Shown here: in pieces, positions 13,530 to 23,293 of the stretch
How the letters are laid out: every line of letters begins with the position of its first letter
How positions within the stretch are numbered: position 1 is the stretch's first letter
Assembly: GCA_902539825.1 (NCBI GenBank)
Contig: CACBMH010000007.1
Location: 1-45,103 of the forward strand
Length of the DNA stretch: 45,103 nucleotides
Reading direction: 5' to 3'
Source: an uncultured Alphaproteobacteria bacterium
Lineage (GTDB): Bacteria > Pseudomonadota > Alphaproteobacteria > HIMB59 > GCA-002718135
Translations under genes and position numbers: made by a program
Notes under the pieces: model-generated
The model's input: the letters and a program-made list of their open reading frames with translations, nothing else
Databases searched by the model: none
Told to the model about the DNA's origin: nothing

Positions 13530-14504
13530 ATGAAAAAGGAAATTAGTAGAAAATTCTGTGTAGCACCAATGATGGGATATACAACACCATATGCAAGAAA
13601 ACTTTATAGAATTTTGTCAAAAAATAGTTTTCTCTTTAGTGAAATGATAGCAACAAAATCACTGATTTATTCAAAGAGTAGAGAAAATATTATTGATAAT
13701 GACCTCAATAATCCTGTTGCTCTTCAAGTTGGTGGTTCTGAGGTAGAGGATTTGGCAAAGGCAGCAAAAATAGCAATAGATTACAATTATGATGAAATCA
13801 ATTTAAATGTTGGTTGTCCAAGCAAAGCAGTTCAAAAAGGTAGTTTTGGTGCATGTCTTATGAGAGATAAAATTCTTGTTAGAAATTGTATAGAAGCTTT
13901 ACAAAATGATAAAATTGAAGCTACATTAAAATGTAGACTAGGACTAGGTAAAGAATTAAATTATGAATTCTTTGAAGAATTTATTGACGAGATATCAAAA
14001 ACAGGAATTAAATTTATTTATGTGCATGCAAGAAACGCAATCCTTAGTGGTATTAGTCCGCAAGGTAATAGAACCATACCCCCTCTTAGTTATGATTTTG
14101 TAAAAAAAGTAAAAAATAAATATACTAATATAACATTTATACTAAACGGAGGTATAAATAATCTTAATGACGCAGAGAATCTTTTAAAAGAATTTGATGG
14201 AGTAATGATTGGAAGATTAATTAAAAATAACCCCTTTATATTGAAAGAGGTTGATAAAAAAATTTTTAAAGGAGAAGATAAATTGATTGATGAATCAATA
14301 ATTAATAATTATTTTGAATATATTAAACCTAAATTAGGCTTTGAATCAATATTTAGATTATTAAGTCCTCTACTAAGTATCTTTTTTTCAGTTCCTAATA
14401 GTAAAACTTATAAATCTAAAATCAATGATTACATGAAAGGTCAAAAAATTAATTTAATTGAAGATTTATTAATAAAATTTGTTAGTGAGAGAAATCTAAG
14501 TTAA
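13530..14504 (+). CDS. dusA: tRNA-dihydrouridine synthase A
   Basis: FMN-dependent reductase making dihydrouridine in the tRNA D-loop. The TIM-barrel start FCVAPMMGYTTPYARKLYR, the SEMI.T.SL segment and NLNVGCPSKAVQKGSFGACLM with its catalytic cysteine fit the DusA subgroup (DusB/C differ at these sites). FMN-phosphate binding is suggested by LNGGINN and DGVMIGRL. At 324 residues it is normal. It is divergent from the carbonic anhydrase with a 41-base gap, and convergent with the PagL-like gene. Confidence 0.92.
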   Translation: MKKEISRKFCVAPMMGYTTPYARKLYRILSKNSFLFSEMIATKSLIYSKSRENIIDNDLNNPVALQVGGSEVEDLAKAAKIAIDYNYDEINLNVGCPSKAVQKGSFGACLMRDKILVRNCIEALQNDKIEATLKCRLGLGKELNYEFFEEFIDEISKTGIKFIYVHARNAILSGISPQGNRTIPPLSYDFVKKVKNKYTNITFILNGGINNLNDAENLLKEFDGVMIGRLIKNNPFILKEVDKKIFKGEDKLIDESIINNYFEYIKPKLGFESIFRLLSPLLSIFFSVPNSKTYKSKINDYMKGQKINLIEDLLIKFVSERNLS

Positions 14505-14509
14505 ATTTT

Positions 14510-15040
14510 TTAATAAGGTATATGATATGAAAAACTTATGATTTCAACACCTGGATTTTTATCGCCTAAGTTTGCATTTGAAATGTGGCTAAAAGAAATA
14601 CCAATTCTATTTTTATTTTCTAATTGATAACTAATTTCAAGTGATGTTCTGAATTGCAGATCATTACCTAATTTTTTTCCAGAACCATCATTATAAATAC
14701 CTGCACCAAAACTTGGTGTAAAAAAAAGTTTGTTTTCATTACCTTCAAATAATTCACCAAGATTATCTTCGATATAAATTCCTGTTAGAATATAGGATGC
14801 AGAATCATTAGTATATTCAAAGCCAAAAAAGGGCTTCAAGAAAAAAAAATTGTCTTCTTCGGGCCCAATATCAAATAATGTTTTATCACTTCTATATTCA
14901 TATCTAAAATCTGTGGCTTGATTTTTTTCAGAACCATCAAATTTTACATCATAAATACCAATGCCAAAAACGTTTGTACCCTTACTGACGGCTACATTAG
15001 AAATTAAAACAAAAGCTATAAAGGAAAATATTTTGATCAC
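14510..15040 (-). CDS. PagL-like lipid A 3-O-deacylase
   Basis: Predicted outer-membrane beta-barrel enzyme of the PagL/acyloxyacyl hydrolase type, which removes the 3-position acyl chain of lipid A. A signal peptide covers roughly residues 1-19. The remaining sequence alternates short beta-like segments and ends in an aromatic residue, as outer-membrane barrels do. The catalytic pattern is visible as His152, Ser154 (SHISN) and Glu166, with the H-x-S and S-to-E (12) spacing of PagL. At 176 residues it matches the family. It is last in the minus-strand run after rpoH, 31 bases away, so heat-shock sigma and lipid A remodelling may share a transcript. Confidence 0.78.
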   Translation of the reverse strand: MIKIFSFIAFVLISNVAVSKGTNVFGIGIYDVKFDGSEKNQATDFRYEYRSDKTLFDIGPEEDNFFFLKPFFGFEYTNDSASYILTGIYIEDNLGELFEGNENKLFFTPSFGAGIYNDGSGKKLGNDLQFRTSLEISYQLENKNRIGISFSHISNANLGDKNPGVEIISFSYHIPY

Positions 15041-15071
15041 TTAAATACTTTATAATTATTTTAAATAGCTA

Positions 15072-15935
15072 TCAAATGAAAAATTCTTTATTTTGTTGAG
15101 AAATTTCAAGTAAAGATTTCTTTAATTTCTCTAATGCCTTTGTCTCTATTTGTCTTACCCTTTCTTTACTTATCTTTAACTTATGACCTAACTCGTCTAG
15201 AGTTATACTTTTCTCTCTGAATTTTCTTAAACGTATAATTGTCTTTTCTCTATCATTTAAACTATCGATAGCTTTATTTATAAAATCCTTTTTTATATTT
15301 TTGTCATTAAATTCTTCATAGGTTTCTTCAGGATTTTGGCGTTCATCAGCTAATAAACTCATTAAGTCATTTTCAGTATCATTATCCACCTTTTGATTTA
15401 GGTATAGATCTCCACCAGTAAGTCTAGACTCCATATTTTGTACTTCTAAAGATTTAACATTAAGCATGTTTGATACTTTGTTTATTTCCTCTTGCCCCAT
15501 AAATTCTCTAGACACATCATTTATCTGTTGTTTGATTTTTTTAAGATTAAAGAAGAGGGCTTTTTGGGATGCTGTGGAGCCAGTTCTCACTACAGACCAA
15601 TTTTTTAAGATATAGTCCTGTATGGAAGCTCTTATCCACCAAGAAGCATAAGTGGAAAGTCTAAAATCTTTAGAAGTATCAAATTTTTCTAATGCGTGCA
15701 TAATTCCAAGAACTCCTTCATGGATCAAATCGTCTAGTGGCAAGCCATAACTAGTATACTTTCTAGCATAGGAAACAGCAAGGCGGAGGTATGAATTAAG
15801 AATTTTTTGAAGGGATCTAGGAGTTCTTTTATCTCTCCAATCATTTATAAGTTTAAATTCTTCGTCTTTTTCTAAAATATCAGCTTTTTTAGAGAGCTCT
15901 ACAAGATTGTTCGAAAAAAAATATTTTGAATTCAT
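15072..15935 (-). CDS. rpoH: RNA polymerase sigma-32 (heat-shock) factor
   Basis: Group 3 sigma factor. Region 2 contains LDDLIHEGVLGIMHALEKFD and STYASWWIRASIQDYI. The RpoH box is clear at residues 124-133 (QKALFFNLKK), preceded by VVRTGSTAS. Region 4 is at the C-terminus with ERVRQIETKALEKL. At 287 residues it has RpoH length; the primary sigma would be much longer. It follows the ligand-free phosphoesterase-like gene after 31 bases. Alphaproteobacterial rpoH genes are often found close to carD and fdxA, as here. Confidence 0.94.
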   Translation of the reverse strand: MNSKYFFSNNLVELSKKADILEKDEEFKLINDWRDKRTPRSLQKILNSYLRLAVSYARKYTSYGLPLDDLIHEGVLGIMHALEKFDTSKDFRLSTYASWWIRASIQDYILKNWSVVRTGSTASQKALFFNLKKIKQQINDVSREFMGQEEINKVSNMLNVKSLEVQNMESRLTGGDLYLNQKVDNDTENDLMSLLADERQNPEETYEEFNDKNIKKDFINKAIDSLNDREKTIIRLRKFREKSITLDELGHKLKISKERVRQIETKALEKLKKSLLEISQQNKEFFI

Positions 15936-15966
15936 ATATTAATATACGAATTATTTTAATTTTGGA

Positions 15967-16779
15967 TCAATTATTTTCAAATAAATCTAAAATTTCCCCA
16001 TTTTCTGCAAATATTCCACATAAAATATTTTTATTTGATAAAGGTTGTTTAAATAAAGTACAGACTGTATTTTTTTTTGAAATATCTAATTTGTTTCTGT
16101 GTTCAGATTCATAACCTCTAACAATTCTTACAAAAGTATTGTATGGTTCTTGTATTTTAGAAAAATTTTGGAATCCCCACCAAAAACAATCATTTTGTGC
16201 TGATAAAGGTCTAGTTATATCAACGCCTCTGTTTACAAATAATATTTTCTTAGTGTAAGAATATGCTGCATGTTTTAAATTTAAAAAGTATTGTTCATGA
16301 CCAGGATTCTCTTGTATTACTTTGTTTAAATTTGAAGTCCATTTTGAAATATTAAGCGTTCCTGAGGAAGCAATATTTCTTACCTCGTTTTCAGAAAATC
16401 CATAAGAATTTATAGTTTTATTTACTCCATGGTCAAACATCCAATCAATAATTTCTGTGGGGTTTGGAGCAAGTTGTAATTGTAACAATTTACTAAACAT
16501 CTCTTCTTGTGCTCCCCTTAAAAATACAATGGTTTCTGGTTTTAACCTAAATTTTGACATTAGATTAAATCTTAAATCAATAACACTACTTAAAGTTTCT
16601 CTAGAATTTTCTCCTAGACCTATAACATTGCCAAGAAAAATTAACTTATCTTCAGCGTTAAAATTTTTTTGAATATACTTTTTAATTGAACTAAATGATT
16701 TTAAATTTGAATGAATTGATCCTATAGCCCATATCTTCTCAGACTTCTTTAGTTCAACAAAATTGCTAATATTATTCAA
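15967..16779 (-). CDS. Phosphoesterase-fold protein lacking metal ligands (probable pseudo-phosphatase)
   Basis: The 270-residue sequence follows the PPP-type calcineurin-like phosphatase from end to end, but its metal sites are replaced. GDIHG reads GSIHS (20-24: Asp to Ser, His23 kept); GDxxDRG reads GNVIGLG (50-56); RGNHEEM reads RGAQEEM (88-94: Asn to Ala, His to Gln); FVHAG reads FVNRG (181-185). The flanking framework, including WMFDHGVNKTINSYG and the RPLSAQ and WWG segments, is preserved. It is therefore probably a folded, non-catalytic protein, perhaps binding or scaffolding. It sits between carD (4-base gap) and rpoH in one transcript. What it binds is unknown. Confidence 0.75.
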   Translation of the reverse strand: MNNISNFVELKKSEKIWAIGSIHSNLKSFSSIKKYIQKNFNAEDKLIFLGNVIGLGENSRETLSSVIDLRFNLMSKFRLKPETIVFLRGAQEEMFSKLLQLQLAPNPTEIIDWMFDHGVNKTINSYGFSENEVRNIASSGTLNISKWTSNLNKVIQENPGHEQYFLNLKHAAYSYTKKILFVNRGVDITRPLSAQNDCFWWGFQNFSKIQEPYNTFVRIVRGYESEHRNKLDISKKNTVCTLFKQPLSNKNILCGIFAENGEILDLFENN

Positions 16780-16783
16780 AATA

Positions 16784-17287
16784 TTATTTTTTACTTAAAA
16801 TTTGTTCAATTTTTTCAGTCGATTGAAAATAATCAGTTTTTTCAACTGCGGCAACTTCTCTAGCTAGACGTTCTATTGCAACTTGGAACATTTGCCTTTC
16901 ACTGTATGATTGTTCAGCTTGAGTAGTTTTTCTAAATAGATCTCTAACAACTTCAGCAATTTTAACTGGGTCTCCAGAAAAAATCTTTGTTTCATATTCT
17001 TGAGCTCTCCTACTCCACATAATTCTTCTTATCTTTGGCTTCAGCTTTAGAGTGGTATAAACTTCATCAATTATTTTTTTTGAAGAAATTTTTCTCAATC
17101 CAACCTCATCTTTTTTATCGAGAGGAACTCTGATTGTAAGTTTGGATTGCTCCATTTTAACAACATAGAAACTTGTTTTTATGTTAGAGATCTCCATATT
17201 TTCAATTTTTGAAATTTCTCCTACACCATGTTTTGGATAAACAACAATTTCTCCTAATTTAAATTCAGAATTTTTTTTTGATTTCAT
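16784..17287 (-). CDS. carD: CarD-family transcriptional regulator
   Basis: CarD/CdnL protein that binds the RNA polymerase beta subunit and stabilises open complexes, notably at rRNA and growth-related promoters. The N-terminal RNAP-interaction domain is recognisable (FKLGEIVVYPKHGVGEISKIE, a Tudor-like fold). The helical DNA-binding half includes a WSRRAQEYETKI segment and a RDL.RK region. At 167 residues it has the usual length. It starts directly after fdxA (adjacent bases) and is followed by the phosphoesterase-like gene. This pairing with fdxA is common in Alphaproteobacteria. Confidence 0.93.
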   Translation of the reverse strand: MKSKKNSEFKLGEIVVYPKHGVGEISKIENMEISNIKTSFYVVKMEQSKLTIRVPLDKKDEVGLRKISSKKIIDEVYTTLKLKPKIRRIMWSRRAQEYETKIFSGDPVKIAEVVRDLFRKTTQAEQSYSERQMFQVAIERLAREVAAVEKTDYFQSTEKIEQILSKK

Positions 17288-17620
17288 CTATGACCCTGGT
17301 TTTTCACTAAAATGTTTAATATATTTATCTTTTATATTTTGCCACTCCTCAGCGTCAGCTGGAGGTTCTTTTTTTATATTAATATTTGGCCAGATTTCTG
17401 AATATTTCCTATTAATCTCAGCCCATTTTTCAATTCCATCTTCAGTATCAGGTAAAATTGCTTCAACAGGACACTCTGGCTCACAAACACCGCAATCAAT
17501 ACATTCATCAGGATGGATGACTAGCATATTTTCACCCTCATAAAAACAATCTACTGGGCAGACTTCAACGCAATCCATATGCTTACATTTTATACATTTT
17601 TCATCAACAACATACGTCAT
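17288..17620 (-). CDS. fdxA: Seven-iron ferredoxin (3Fe-4S/4Fe-4S)
   Basis: Small soluble electron carrier. The N-terminus [20 protein letters not shown], then CP, gives the first cluster cysteines, and [12 protein letters not shown] the second set; this is the FdxA pattern binding one [3Fe-4S] and one [4Fe-4S] cluster. The C-terminal helical extension (after about residue 60, with a [15 protein letters not shown] segment) is typical of this class. At 110 residues it is normal. It lies between the TerB-like gene and carD with nearly no gaps. Its partner reductase is not in this window. Confidence 0.95.
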
Positions 17621-17626
17621 AACAAT

Positions 17627-18076
17627 TTAATTTTGTAGTTTATCTAGAGCTCTTTTTCTTGCATTTCCAGAGTTTACATCAGAAATATAAAGTAATCCAG
17701 CTAGTCTTCTAATAAGATTTGACTCAAAATCATGAATTTCACCATCAGATAATACAATTTCCCACAAAGCTTCAATAAGGAGAAGTTTCTTATCATCATC
17801 AAAATTTTTATTTATAAAAGAAGTATAATTGTGAAGAGATCTAGAATTGTTTTTATTTTTTAATGCTTCTTTAATAACAATTTCTACTTCCTCTGGATCT
17901 TCGTTAAAAACGTTAATTAAACTAAATTTAATTTTATTTAGCTCAATTTCATCAACTTTACCATCCGTATAAGCAGCTTCAATCATTAAGCCTGAAAGTA
18001 ACTCTAAATTTTTACTTTCATCGTTATTCTCATTAGAATTTTGATTATTTAAAATTTTTTTTAATATATTTATCAA
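17627..18076 (-). CDS. TerB-like domain protein
   Basis: Small acidic helical protein (149 residues). LSGLMIEAAYTDGKVDEIE and LWEIVLSDGEIHDFE are the two acidic repeats of the TerB/DjlA-type fold, with the DG.. motif repeated. TerB was named for tellurite resistance, but most members are of unknown or metal-sensing role, so no resistance function should be assumed. The N-terminus is amphipathic/basic, then Asn-rich. It lies 6 bases from fdxA and 20 from the helicase; in many Alphaproteobacteria an S4 RNA-binding gene sits at this place instead. Confidence 0.75.
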   Translation of the reverse strand: MINILKKILNNQNSNENNDESKNLELLSGLMIEAAYTDGKVDEIELNKIKFSLINVFNEDPEEVEIVIKEALKNKNNSRSLHNYTSFINKNFDDDKKLLLIEALWEIVLSDGEIHDFESNLIRRLAGLLYISDVNSGNARKRALDKLQN

Positions 18077-18096
18077 TTTGTACCTTTCAAATATGT

Positions 18097-20646
18097 TTAA
18101 AGAAGTTTTTCCAAAACAGCAAAAGGGGAATTTGGATCTCTTTTAATTTTATCTTCCTTAATTTTTTTCTTTATTTTTTTATTAGATTTATTTTTCATTA
18201 TTTTTTTTGTATCTTTTTTGTTATTGCCAAGAAAGAATAGTTTTTTTTTATCAGCTGTAATTAAATATTCATATCCGCAAAATGTCATTATGTCCTTTAG
18301 TTGGTCACTATTACATCCTATTGGGTTCATAAGATCGGATGATTCTAGAAATGGCCCTTTTTTTAATTTTTGTCTTGCTAAAAAGAAAATTTTTTCAAAA
18401 ACATCTATTCTGAATATAAAATTTTTAATATTTATATATCCAATAGATTGCCAATAATTATCTGGCATTTTTATTTCAGATGTAAAAGATACTCTACCAT
18501 TCAAAGGAAGTGGTAAAATATCATCATTTTCATTCTGGTAAAATGTTTTCCATAAAATTGCATTAAATTCTAAAGGTTTTTTCTTTAATAAGTTTGGAAT
18601 AAAAAAATATTTAGCGCCAACCCTAATTCCTAATTTAGAAAGTTGAAGTTTAGCATCTGGTGTAATTTTTTTTAAAGTATCTTTAAATCTTTCAATTGGA
18701 TAATTTCCAAAATTTTCAAAACAATTAAAGGCGATTGCTCTGATTTCTGAATTTATGTCTTCATCTAATCTTTTATTAAGAGGATAAAGAGTATTATTAA
18801 TTTCATCTTCTAGCCATTTTTGAAGTTTTGCTGAAATCAATAATTTATTTTCTGAAGATAAATACTCAGAATTCAAAGCATCAGCAATGGGTCTAAATAT
18901 TGACTTGCCTTTTTTTAATTTACCAACAGGCTCTTCTCCCCAATAAATAAAAGTATCATCTTTTATTTTACAATTACTAATATCACCAAAACTAATTGAA
19001 TCTGTGGGAGCATTCAAAAAATTATCAACTTTTCCATTAATCATATTTCTTACTGATTTTTTTATATTACTAATAGAAAAAAGGGATTGTGAAAATATTT
19101 TTTTATCTTCAAAAAGATCAAAACCTTTAATAATTCCATATTTATCCTTGTCGAGAAATACTTCATTGTTATTTCTTATAAAAATATCCTTAATATTAAA
19201 AATCTTTTTTTCTCCAATAAAAAACTTGGAAGAATAGTCTATAAATTTATTTGTAAGTCTACTATGTAATTGATCAGATAATTCATTCTCTATTTGCTGT
19301 GTTTTTTCTTTCCAATAATATGTATTTTTAAGCCAATTATGATTATTTGAAATATATGTCCAAGTTCTGATCTGGGATATTTTGATTGAAAGCTCAGGAA
19401 TGTCTCCACCATAATTAATTAATTTACTAATTTTGTTATTAATCCATTCTTCAGGAATAAAGTAATTATTTTTAATTAAAACTAAATATATGTCTTTTAA
19501 AAGTAATAAATAGTTGTCATTAAATAGTTTTTCAAAATCTGGAATTTGACAAATATTCCATAATAACTTTAAATTTTTCTTAGATACTAAAAATCTTTTT
19601 ATTTCATTATCATTTATTAAATTTCTAAAATTTAGTTCATCTAATGCATTTTTTTTATGTATATAATAACTTTGTATAGGGTATTTCTTTAATGAAGATA
19701 ATAATGAATCAATCGAACTAAAATCTAAATCACTATTCCTCCAATATATTTTTTGAATATTATCGAAATTATGCTTTTCTATTTGTTGTATAATTAAAGG
19801 ATCTAAGTTACCTGCTTCCTTAGTATAACTAAACGTACCATCCTGTTTATATCTACCAGCCCTACCTGCTATTTGACCTAATTCACTTGGAGTTAGATTA
19901 CGGTTATATCTACCATCAAATTTTTCTAGGGAAGAAAAACTCACATGATTGATATTTAAATTTAAACCCATTCCAATAGCGTCAGTAGCTACAAGATAGT
20001 CAACATTTTTATTTTCATAAACTTCAACTTGAGCATTTCTAGTTCTTGGACTAAGTGAACCCAAAACAACTGCAGCTCCACCTTTATGAGTTCTGATATT
20101 TTCTGCAATTTCGTAAACTTTATTTATATTGAAAGCAATTATTGCAGATCTTGGTTCCAGTTTAGAAAAATTTTGCTTTCTTAAAAAAGTGAGCTCAGAT
20201 AGCCTATTTTTTTTTTCAATAGAAATACTTGGGTATATTTTTTTTAATATATTTTCAATATTCAATGATCCTAAAAAAATGGTTTGAAAATTTCCTCTTA
20301 AATTTAGGATTCTGTCCGTAAAAATATGACCCCTTTCATAATCTGCTGCTAGTTGAATTTCATCAATGATAACACAATCTACAGGAATGTTATTAGGCAT
20401 TGACTCAACAGTACAAAAAAAATATTTTGCTTCTTTAGGAAAAATTTTTTCCTCACCAGTTATGAGAGCTATATTACTTAGACCTAACCTTTTTACTGCT
20501 TTATCGTAATTCTCTCTAGCAAGTAATCTTAATGGGAATCCAAAAATCCCCGAAGAGAAGGAAAATAATTTTTCAAATGCTGTGTAAGTTTTGCCTGTAT
20601 TAGTAGGCCCAAGTATAGCTAATAAATTTTCATCTTCACTGTTCAT
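18097..20646 (-). CDS. SUV3-like superfamily II RNA helicase
   Basis: ATP-dependent helicase related to mitochondrial SUV3. Walker A is GPTNTGKTYT (residues 13-22), motif II is DEIQLAADYERGHIFTDRIL near residue 95, and the second RecA domain carries ATDAIGMGLNL and IAGRAGR. The long C-terminal part (from about residue 300) is less conserved. The tail is lysine-rich and ends in DPNSPFAVLEKLL, a conserved ending in alphaproteobacterial homologues as I recall them. At 849 residues it is near the family length. It probably helps RNA turnover; it lies between acnA and the TerB-like gene. Confidence 0.88.
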   Translation of the reverse strand: MNSEDENLLAILGPTNTGKTYTAFEKLFSFSSGIFGFPLRLLARENYDKAVKRLGLSNIALITGEEKIFPKEAKYFFCTVESMPNNIPVDCVIIDEIQLAADYERGHIFTDRILNLRGNFQTIFLGSLNIENILKKIYPSISIEKKNRLSELTFLRKQNFSKLEPRSAIIAFNINKVYEIAENIRTHKGGAAVVLGSLSPRTRNAQVEVYENKNVDYLVATDAIGMGLNLNINHVSFSSLEKFDGRYNRNLTPSELGQIAGRAGRYKQDGTFSYTKEAGNLDPLIIQQIEKHNFDNIQKIYWRNSDLDFSSIDSLLSSLKKYPIQSYYIHKKNALDELNFRNLINDNEIKRFLVSKKNLKLLWNICQIPDFEKLFNDNYLLLLKDIYLVLIKNNYFIPEEWINNKISKLINYGGDIPELSIKISQIRTWTYISNNHNWLKNTYYWKEKTQQIENELSDQLHSRLTNKFIDYSSKFFIGEKKIFNIKDIFIRNNNEVFLDKDKYGIIKGFDLFEDKKIFSQSLFSISNIKKSVRNMINGKVDNFLNAPTDSISFGDISNCKIKDDTFIYWGEEPVGKLKKGKSIFRPIADALNSEYLSSENKLLISAKLQKWLEDEINNTLYPLNKRLDEDINSEIRAIAFNCFENFGNYPIERFKDTLKKITPDAKLQLSKLGIRVGAKYFFIPNLLKKKPLEFNAILWKTFYQNENDDILPLPLNGRVSFTSEIKMPDNYWQSIGYINIKNFIFRIDVFEKIFFLARQKLKKGPFLESSDLMNPIGCNSDQLKDIMTFCGYEYLITADKKKLFFLGNNKKDTKKIMKNKSNKKIKKKIKEDKIKRDPNSPFAVLEKLL

Positions 20647-20650
20647 TAAA

Positions 20651-23293
20651 TTATGCAGCTTCAGATATTATTTCATTTAAAACGTAATTTAAAATTCCTC
20701 CCGCTTTATAATATTCAAGCTCCTTATTAGTATCTATTCTGCACCTTAATTCTATTTTTTTATTTTCTTCTGAATTTATTTCACAAAAGATTATTGATCC
20801 TGGTTTTATTTCAGATAAACCTAATATAGAAAATTTTTCTTCACCTGTTATACAAAGGTTAGATTTGTTATCGTTTTTAGTAAATTCAAGAGGTAAAACT
20901 CCCATTCCTATTAAATTTGATCTATGAATTCTTTCGAAGCTTTCAGCAATTACAGCTTTGACACCTAAAAGCCTCGTTCCCTTAGCTGCCCAATCTCTTG
21001 AGGATCCAGTGCCATATTCTTTCCCAGCAATTATAATAGTATCAATTTTGTTTTTTATATACTCCTGAGCTGCATCATATATTGACATTTGTTTGTTTGA
21101 AAAAAAAGATTTGGTAAAACCACCCTCTACATCTTCTAAAATTTGGTTTTTGATACGAATATTTGCAAAAGTGCCTCTCATCATAATTTCATGATTGCCG
21201 CGTCTAGATCCATAAGAATTAAAATTTTTTGAGTTTATTTGCCTATTTGTTAAATAAAGACCTGCTGGACTATCTTCTTTAATACTGCCCGCTGGTGAAA
21301 TATGGTCAGTTGTTACGCTATCACCAAGTAATGCCAGAACTCTTGCATCTTTAATGTCTTTTACTTCAAAAGCATTTTCTTGATTGAAAAAGGGCGGATG
21401 TTTAATATAAGTACTTGTATCACTCCAATCGTATGTTGTGTCTATCTTATTATTAATCGCTTTCCAATTATCATCTCCTTTATAAATCTCTCTATATCTT
21501 TCTTTAAACATATCAGGAGTCAAACATATACTTAGAGTTTTATTGATTTCAAAATTTGTGGGCCACAAATCCTTAAGAAATATATCTTGTCCATTTTTAG
21601 ATTTGCCTAGGCTATCAGTAGTAAGGTTAATATTTATATTGCCTGCTATTGCATAAGCAACAACAAGCGGAGGTGAAGCAAGAAAATTTGCTTTTACTTC
21701 CTGGTGAACTCTACCCTCAAAGTTTCTATTACCCGATAAGACTGAACAAACAGTTAAATTATTCAATTCAATTTCATTTGACACCCAGGCATCCAAAGGC
21801 CCAGAATTGCCAATACAAGTTGTGCATCCATAACCAACTGTATTGAAACCAAGTGAATCAAAATATTCGGTTAGACCTGCTTTATTAAGATAGTCACTAA
21901 CAACTTTACTGCCTGGAGCCAAACTTGTTTTAACCCATGGCTTAACTTCAAGACCTAATTCAATTGCTTTTTTGGCTAAAAGCCCAGCAGCAATCATTAC
22001 ATTAGGATTTGATGTATTTGTGCAACTTGTGATTGCAGCTATTACAACATCACCAGTATTTAATTTATTCCTATTAAGATAAGAATTTTTATGTAATTTT
22101 CTAAATTCTTTAGGGGCATCTTTTAATAGAATTTTATCTTGAGGTCTTTTTGGGCCAGCAATTGAAGGTTCTATTTTATCCAAATCTAATATTATTTTTT
22201 CAGAATATTCTGGCGCATAGTTTTCATTAGCCCAAAGATTTTGCTTTTTTGAATATTTTTCTACTATATTTAAATGTTCATTATCCTTACCTGTTAATCT
22301 AAGGTAATTAATTGTTTCTTCGTCTGTTGGAAAAAATCCACAAGTTGCACCATATTCTGGTGCCATATTAGAAATTGTTGCTCTATCAGCTAAGGATAGA
22401 TTTTTTAGACCGCCGCCATAAAATTCTACAAACTTCCCAACAACTCCTTTTTTTCTCAAAATATTAGTTATTGATAAAACTAAATCAGTAGCTGTAATAC
22501 CTTCTTTTAGAGATCCTTTTAGTTCAAATCCAATTACTTCTGGAATATTCATTGATATGGCTTGACCCAACATAGCTGCCTCAGCCTCTATTCCCCCAAC
22601 TCCCCATCCTAAAACAGAGAGTGAATTAACCATTGTTGTATGGCTATCTGTTCCTACAACAGAGTCTGGGAATAAGTATTTTTGATTATTAATTTCTTTT
22701 AGCCATATGGTTTTAGCAATATTTTCTAAATTTACTTGATGACAAATACCCGAACCTGGAGGAACAAGATAAAAGTTATCAAATGAACTTTGGCCCCATT
22801 TAAGAAATTCATATCTTTCTTTATTTCTATCAAATTCTTTACTAACATTTTCTTTTAATGCATTATTATCTTTATAACTATCTACCATTACTGAGTGGTC
22901 TATAACTAGATCAACTCTGGATAATGGGTTTATTTTTTTTGGCTCAATACCCCTCGATTTTAACGCATTTCGCATCGCAGCAAGATCAGCAACAGCAGGT
23001 ACACCAGTAAAGTCTTGCATTAGGACTCGAGTTGGAAAAAAAGCTATTTCAGTTTTTTTATCTTTTTTATTAGATTGTTTTAATGAAGTAAAAACATTCA
23101 TGATCATATCTTTAGTGATATTCTCTCCATCTTCATTTCTAAGTATATTTTCTATTATTATTTTTAAAGAAATTGGAATCTTACTAAGGTCAATATCAAA
23201 ATATTCGGCAGCTTTATTTAAGTCAAAATATTTGAATTTTTGGTTATTTATTTCAATCGTACCCTCTGAACTAAAAGAATTAATATTTTTCAT
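20651..23293 (-). CDS. acnA: Aconitate hydratase (AcnA type)
   Basis: TCA-cycle enzyme that isomerises citrate to isocitrate through a [4Fe-4S] cluster. Cluster cysteines are in ITSCTNTSNPNV and GYGCTTCIGNSG; the substrate-binding region has SVVGTDSHTTM, and the C-terminal swivel domain has EYGTGSSRDWAAKG. At 880 residues it fits the AcnA/IRP branch rather than AcnB. It is first in the long minus-strand run, 4 bases before the helicase. The 298 bases upstream to the basic-repeat gene must hold its promoter. Confidence 0.95.
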   Translation of the reverse strand: MKNINSFSSEGTIEINNQKFKYFDLNKAAEYFDIDLSKIPISLKIIIENILRNEDGENITKDMIMNVFTSLKQSNKKDKKTEIAFFPTRVLMQDFTGVPAVADLAAMRNALKSRGIEPKKINPLSRVDLVIDHSVMVDSYKDNNALKENVSKEFDRNKERYEFLKWGQSSFDNFYLVPPGSGICHQVNLENIAKTIWLKEINNQKYLFPDSVVGTDSHTTMVNSLSVLGWGVGGIEAEAAMLGQAISMNIPEVIGFELKGSLKEGITATDLVLSITNILRKKGVVGKFVEFYGGGLKNLSLADRATISNMAPEYGATCGFFPTDEETINYLRLTGKDNEHLNIVEKYSKKQNLWANENYAPEYSEKIILDLDKIEPSIAGPKRPQDKILLKDAPKEFRKLHKNSYLNRNKLNTGDVVIAAITSCTNTSNPNVMIAAGLLAKKAIELGLEVKPWVKTSLAPGSKVVSDYLNKAGLTEYFDSLGFNTVGYGCTTCIGNSGPLDAWVSNEIELNNLTVCSVLSGNRNFEGRVHQEVKANFLASPPLVVAYAIAGNININLTTDSLGKSKNGQDIFLKDLWPTNFEINKTLSICLTPDMFKERYREIYKGDDNWKAINNKIDTTYDWSDTSTYIKHPPFFNQENAFEVKDIKDARVLALLGDSVTTDHISPAGSIKEDSPAGLYLTNRQINSKNFNSYGSRRGNHEIMMRGTFANIRIKNQILEDVEGGFTKSFFSNKQMSIYDAAQEYIKNKIDTIIIAGKEYGTGSSRDWAAKGTRLLGVKAVIAESFERIHRSNLIGMGVLPLEFTKNDNKSNLCITGEEKFSILGLSEIKPGSIIFCEINSEENKKIELRCRIDTNKELEYYKAGGILNYVLNEIISEAA

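Follow-up and report, generated by a model that had tools for sequence, protein, structure and literature searches.

The window, a 45,103-nt stretch of DNA from an uncultured alphaproteobacterium, carries on its minus strand a series of genes in the order SUV3-like helicase, TerB-like protein, fdxA, carD, degenerate PPP-fold protein (pseudophosphatase), sigma-32-type factor, and PagL-like protein (Table 1). A first-pass annotation had drawn attention to positions 15967-16779; these coordinates hold, with the amendment that the frame sits on the minus strand, where an ORF of 270 residues spans a region in which the plus strand is full of stops. The product of the rpoH-like gene scores above the cut-off of the subfamily model NF005143, and just or clearly below the cut-offs of two RpoH equivalog models.

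Table 1. Genes and conserved motifs at the pseudophosphatase locus (positions in the window)
Feature	Position	Strand	Remarks
PagL-like lipid A 3-O-deacylase (PF09411)	14510-15040		last in the same gene series
Sigma-32-type RNA polymerase sigma factor, rpoH-like	15072..15935	-	31 nt downstream of pseudophosphatase gene
Degenerate PPP-fold (pseudophosphatase) gene	15967..16779	-	270 aa, TTG start
Motif 5, R221-G-Y223	16111..16119	-	replaces HGH(T)
Segment R190-P191-L-S-A-Q195-N-D197-C-F-W-W201	16177..16212	-	strongly conserved; placed by AF2 with low confidence
Motif 4, V182-N-R-G-V186	16222..16236	-	replaces VHAG
Motif 3, R88-G-A-Q-E92	16504..16518	-	replaces RGNHE
Motif 2, G50-N-V-I-G-L-G56	16612..16632	-	replaces GDxxDRG
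Motif 1, G20-S-I-H-S24	16708..16722	-	replaces GDxHG; coordinates computed from the ORF start
carD (CarD_TRCF_RID and CarD_C domains)	16784..17287	-	4 nt upstream of pseudophosphatase gene
fdxA-type ferredoxin	17288..17620	-	upstream of carD; NF045490 above cut-off

The codon of residue 1 is TTG in 74 of 80 aligned close sequences and GTG in five, with a gap in the remaining one and never an ATG; since the aligned start is TTG or GTG in 79 of the 80, the TTG start is supported. This non-ATG start (window 16777-16779), which in the window lies 4 nt past carD, is conserved in close relatives. Such a conserved start so close behind carD suggests translational coupling, with an output lower than that of CarD. 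The two genes are probably transcribed together, and a scan of 14400-20800 for promoters and terminators returned uninformative signals at the level of shuffled sequence.

The five motif regions of the PPP framework can be read in order along the protein, each of them altered. The canonical site comprises six metal ligands (D, H, D, N, H, and H) and a catalytic His-Asp dyad, whose roles we take to be those assigned in PP1 and lambda phosphatase. The window protein retains one of these eight positions, H23, which is the sole metal ligand left of the six, and both dyad residues are gone, that is, H91 (the histidine of GNHE) and D54 (the second aspartate of GDxxDRG). The first-pass description of a preserved PPP framework with the motifs GSIHS, GNVIGLG, and RGAQE, an asparagine at position 183, and one remaining metal histidine is accurate throughout. 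Across 176 family sequences, the ligands D21 and D51 are never kept, N90 is kept in two, H223 in three, H183 in 50, and H23 in 160; of the dyad, D54 is never kept and H91 is kept in two, with mostly glycine and glutamine instead. The family thus has neither the six metal ligands nor the His-Asp dyad of an active PPP phosphatase, and judging from these residues two-metal catalysis without the bridging aspartate and the dyad is very unlikely.

An AF2 model built from 65 sequences (pLDDT 81.4, pTM 0.82, with pLDDT below 50 for residues 186-210) has a PPP/calcineurin-like fold, with the five motif regions in order and aligned with those of 18 canonical paralogues. The best VIA-align match is the plant phosphatase RLPH2 (5vjv; Z 18.0 over 223 residues, rmsd 3.2), and the other 49 matches listed have Z scores of 13.7-17.0, including the PnkP phosphatase domain (17.0) and ApaH (14.2-14.3). 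The top Foldseek matches are a putative diadenosine tetraphosphatase, the PP1-like yeast enzyme PPZ1, and lambda phosphatase, with moderate TM-scores of about 0.44-0.58 by query length. The predicted structure, with PPP matches up to Z 18, therefore agrees with the calcineurin-like phosphatase fold proposed at first. Sequence models match the protein only weakly. Even at E ≤ 1, Pfam assigned the window protein to no family, the gathering score of PF00149 not being reached, and among 65 members searched at E ≤ 0.01 PF00149 was found in one and PF14582 in two (best 0.002). The nearest NCBIfam model is ApaH (NF001204), which matches 20 of the 65 members at E ≤ 0.01 (best 8.9e-7) and the window protein with 18.9 bits (E 0.00072) against a cut-off of 176. 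Querying solved structures with the window protein alone yielded a single hit (E 0.15), which we take as chance; the profile yielded weak PPP matches (best 6.5e-5).

The degenerate site is fixed among close relatives. The set used here consists of 80 distinct sequences including that of the window, of at least 260 aa and at least 255 aa in two analyses, drawn from 106 loci after leaving out shorter, contig-cut, and identical sequences; on grounds of similarity we treat it as the family of the window (f1), the f1 label being attached only to loci from the genome search. Named records that match at 59-86% identity come mostly from uncultured Alphaproteobacteria, among them Pelagibacteraceae AG-337-I02, MarineAlpha5 bins, and a SAR11 single-cell genome. 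All 80 sequences share S21, H23, S24, N51, G54, R88, A90, Q91, E92, E93, N183, R221, and Y223, and all 80 keep one of the eight metal/dyad positions. The replacements S21, N51, G54, A90, Q91, N183, and Y223 are fixed at the protein level while each is written in two to four synonymous codons (four each for Ser21, Gly54, and Ala90, and both for Asn51, Asn183, Gln91, and Tyr223). The median pN/pS of the gene is 0.14 against ten close relatives and 0.18 against 78 relatives, approximate values given that dS is near saturation, and equally rough estimates for the neighbours, with dS again near saturation, are 0.07-0.09 for carD, rpoH, and fdxA and 0.20-0.28 for pagL and terB. The pseudophosphatase gene thus evolves faster than carD and rpoH (0.14-0.18 vs. 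0.07-0.09), but far below neutrality. Purifying selection acts on the fold and on the altered residues although the catalytic residues have gone, the pattern that defines a pseudophosphatase. The initial view that this is not a decaying gene is borne out by the replacements found in 80 of 80 sequences, their varied synonymous codons, and a pN/pS well below 1; the two findings named at the outset as counterevidence, relatives with an intact metal site and equal rates of nonsynonymous and synonymous change, did not appear, the former being absent from all 80 close and all 96 class-wide sequences.

The first-pass annotation missed that the pseudophosphatase belongs to a class-wide family. A search with the single protein in 289 Alphaproteobacteria genomes gave matches at E ≤ 0.001 in 103 of them, and a 65-member profile found one match each in 98 of the same genomes (E 3.7e-122 to 1.5e-73), representing 56 taxonomic families, with no further match up to E 1e-25. 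In a wider sample of 299 genomes from the phylum, which also covers the class, the profile has eight matches at E < 1e-90, all within the class, and the next match is at 7.5e-19. None of the 24 genomes of f2, another family in this order, has a pseudophosphatase match. A plasmid search returned 12 records with weak matches only (best E 4e-9), and a phage search returned no match.

We aligned all 96 members outside f1 (the class set) with the 80 close sequences and 18 canonical weak-scoring proteins; these controls are part of the weak matches of the phylum (n = 14) and class (n = 4) searches, and L205 and L214 are near-identical. Class members keep none (n = 11), one (n = 37), two (n = 44), or three (n = 4) of the eight metal/dyad positions, and all 18 canonical paralogues keep all eight. 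D21, D51, and D54 are kept in none of the 96 class members and none of the 80 close sequences. The replacements largely recur across the class, with D51 replaced by N in 91, D54 by G in 96, H91 by Q in 87, and H223 by Y or F in 76 of the 96 members, and N90 is replaced by A in 50, the others having Q, S, G, T, and more. Eighty of the 96 retain H23 and 50 retain H183, from which residual metal binding outside the window's own group is conceivable. A quick-search tree of 125 rows (96 class members, 18 controls, and 11 sequences from the close set of 80) puts the degenerate family on one side of a branch supported at 100% SH-aLRT. Members of this family with an intact site elsewhere were also considered; this is rejected for the 96 fetched proteins, and the 18 intact proteins form a separate branch. 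The family shares with bacterial PPP phosphatases and ApaH (NF001204; 2dfj and 9ojd; lambda phosphatase 1g5b; PnkP 4j6o; RLPH2 5vjv) the fold, the order of the five motifs, and a framework of G50, G89, E92, W113, G118, H161, G185, Q195, and G222 that is common to 17-18 of the 18 canonical paralogues. Unlike them, it lacks all three aspartates (first, bridging, and dyad) in every one of 176 sequences and has newly conserved residues such as W17, N51, G54, Q91, and R221. The best reading of these data is an ancient, single-copy alphaproteobacterial PPP-fold family that has lost the two-metal site and kept the fold.

The gene neighbourhood ties this family most consistently to carD. Counts for close loci refer to L001-L136, in which some genomes occur more than once and the 136th locus (L120) belongs to f2 and has no match. 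In 133 of the other 135, carD precedes the pseudophosphatase gene, and the remaining two are cut by the contig end within the gene. The rpoH-like gene follows in 110 close loci; in 23 of the 133 with downstream sequence it is absent and pagL is next, and two close loci end right after the pseudophosphatase gene. The tight spacing with carD and rpoH noted at first holds in the window, with gaps of 4 nt and 31 nt, but the rpoH link is inconstant even in close loci. The 23 loci with a PagL-like gene in place of the sigma-32-type gene include seven from five other genera.

Synteny across the class was read within a fetched flank of about 2 kb, less near contig ends. In 82 of the 96 loci, carD is found upstream in the same orientation, and in 77 of these the profile start is ≤ 400 nt from the carD stop; in the remaining loci, carD is on the opposite strand (n = 1) or was not found within the fetched flank (n = 13), and in some genomes it is far from the pseudophosphatase gene (e.g. 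136 kb in G360). The rpoH gene was found in 36 of the 96 loci, directly downstream in 33, and fdxA in 65, a count lowered by the limited flank because fdxA sits further out than carD. The pseudophosphatase gene thus has a regular, though not universal, place downstream of carD, and gene order favours CarD over RpoH as a partner. No fusion of CarD and pseudophosphatase occurs in the 96 class loci. CarD_C is present in 254 of the 289 class genomes, comprising 96 of the 98 with the pseudophosphatase family and 158 of the 191 without it, so that the family accompanies carD, whereas carD can do without the family. Among 30 carD-centred class loci (L215-L244), 16 lack any profile match, including matches of the canonical type, and L244 has only a weak partial match (E 0.00029) at its edge. 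Pairwise distances across 64 loci correlate at 0.51 between pseudophosphatase and CarD, at 0.27 between pseudophosphatase and FdxA, and at 0.29 between CarD and FdxA, and none of 500 permutations reaches the correlation of 0.51 with CarD; such a correlation is expected of co-inheritance and is no proof of contact.

The CarD proteins themselves vary. In the one f2 locus read (L120, 1063-1773), the CarD N-terminal tail is lysine-rich and histone H1-like, with 45% Lys over 65 residues, and the CarD open frames of f2, which lacks the pseudophosphatase, are 212-246 aa long vs. about 167 aa in f1. Of 83 class CarDs (loci L137-L196 and L245-L280), 71 end in Ala-Ala, and the CarD of the window ends in Lys-Lys.

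CarD/CdnL is described as an RNA polymerase-binding factor in Caulobacter and other Alphaproteobacteria (PMC5324124, PMC11034885, PMC6994171), and in Caulobacter it supports the transcription of rRNA and biosynthetic genes (PMC5324124, PMC6994171). In Caulobacter, clearance of CdnL/CarD during starvation depends on SpoT and ClpXP, and an Ala-Ala end is described as its ClpXP tail; a possible (p)ppGpp-sensitive adaptor is raised there, and the trigger of the clearance is stated as unknown (PMC11034885).

With carD as the most constant partner gene, and with a retained fold and pocket that suggest binding, we favour a non-catalytic binding regulator of CarD or RNA polymerase, probably encoded in one transcription unit with carD, and put its chances at about even. 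Such a regulator would have given up the ancestral two-metal site while retaining the fold around a remodelled pocket of W17, N51, G54, R88, Q91, E93, and R221 (R88 is also present in 10 of the 18 canonical paralogues). It would be made together with CarD from a weak start codon conserved among close relatives, would bind CarD, RNA polymerase, or a phosphate-bearing ligand without catalysis, and by this binding would tune CarD-dependent transcription. Its predicted inactivity follows from the lost residues, and the retained fold, the fixed new pocket, and the conserved low-confidence segment 190-201 suggest binding. CarD or RNA polymerase is the putative target by virtue of gene order, which can also mean shared regulation only.

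The latter is the core of the main rival, a scaffold that is merely co-expressed with its neighbours. The pseudophosphatase would then be a non-catalytic PPP-fold protein unrelated to CarD, e.g. scaffold- or chaperone-like for FdxA, an RNA process, or the helicase, encoded in a growth or stress operon. The functionally mixed neighbours (SUV3-like helicase, TerB-like protein, FdxA, CarD, sigma-32, and PagL-like protein) are consistent with this, as are the presence of CarD in 158 of the 191 genomes without the family and locus L154, where fdxA lies upstream and carD was not found within the fetched flank. However, carD is the closest and most constant neighbour (82 of 96, 77 close) compared to fdxA (65 of 96) and rpoH (36 of 96), and we regard this rival as possible, though on balance doubtful.

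A more specific alternative is that the former metal pocket acts as a ligand sensor, binding an anion or nucleotide (an alarmone, NTP, or phosphate) via its arginines and controlling CarD activity or turnover. The polar and basic set conserved in the 96 class members and the window (N51 in 92 and Q91 in 88 of 97 at former metal and dyad positions, with R221 in 91 and R88 in 94 next to them) would suit such a ligand, and the dinucleotide hydrolase ApaH is both the nearest NCBIfam model and among the fold matches. The starvation clearance of Caulobacter CdnL/CarD, with its possible (p)ppGpp-sensitive adaptor (PMC11034885), points in the same direction, together with the Ala-Ala end of 71 of 83 class CarDs and a RelA/SpoT synthetase in 34 of the 41 relatives searched. 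However, RelA/SpoT was also found in 15 of 16 searched genomes of f2, a family without the gene, and its presence is thus not discriminating. The window's CarD ends in Lys-Lys, and the pseudophosphatase is kept nonetheless; because that CarD lacks the Ala-Ala tail, a simple Ala-Ala-tail adaptor is not the whole story. We consider the sensor unlikely. Quite improbable, too, is the boldest extension of the regulator, in which the emptied metal site would be a metal-free sensor of a phosphate signal that relays to CarD or RNA polymerase and would be the missing starvation-sensitive factor on CarD, acting throughout the class as an undescribed regulator of bacterial transcription initiation.

That the protein is still an enzyme, using one-metal or metal-free chemistry at the re-made site, is highly improbable. 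A conserved pocket can be catalytic, and H23, E92, H161, N51, Q91, and R221 are strongly conserved, but none of the 176 sequences retains D21, D51, or D54, and the dyad histidine is absent from 174 of them. H23, the window protein's only remaining ligand, is missing from 16 of the 96 class members, and E92 and H161 each occur in 17 of the 18 canonical paralogues and may thus be structural. Local decay of an ordinary phosphatase gene, as the missing ligands of the window protein might by themselves imply, has a practically negligible chance, being refuted by replacements fixed in 80 of 80 sequences with varied codons, a pN/pS of 0.14-0.18, and the lack of internal stops in the listed matches.

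A phosphoesterase fold serving as a binding subunit has parallels in eukaryotes. The B subunits of DNA polymerases and the retromer subunit VPS29 are inactive, calcineurin-like binding subunits that have lost their metals. The pseudophosphatase would resemble them in its way of working, as a metal-less phosphoesterase fold, although they belong elsewhere in the superfamily, to another branch.

The words "phosphatase" and "phosphoesterase" do not occur in the main text of PMC5324124, PMC11034885, or PMC6994171, and the passages on CarD/CdnL consulted there describe no partner gene of the pseudophosphatase kind. Neither a CarD-linked phosphatase nor a similar bacterial pseudophosphatase was found in the open-access literature searched. 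The PPP fold and pseudophosphatases as such are already known, whereas a class-wide, metal-less PPP branch beside carD was not found in that literature. Among bacteria, the family clearly exemplifies a PPP lineage without its metal ligands that is still under selection and that Pfam and NCBIfam models match only weakly. As a catalytically emptied, single-copy gene that usually lies beside carD and is present in 98 of 289 class genomes, it is a concrete candidate for the starvation trigger of CdnL clearance.
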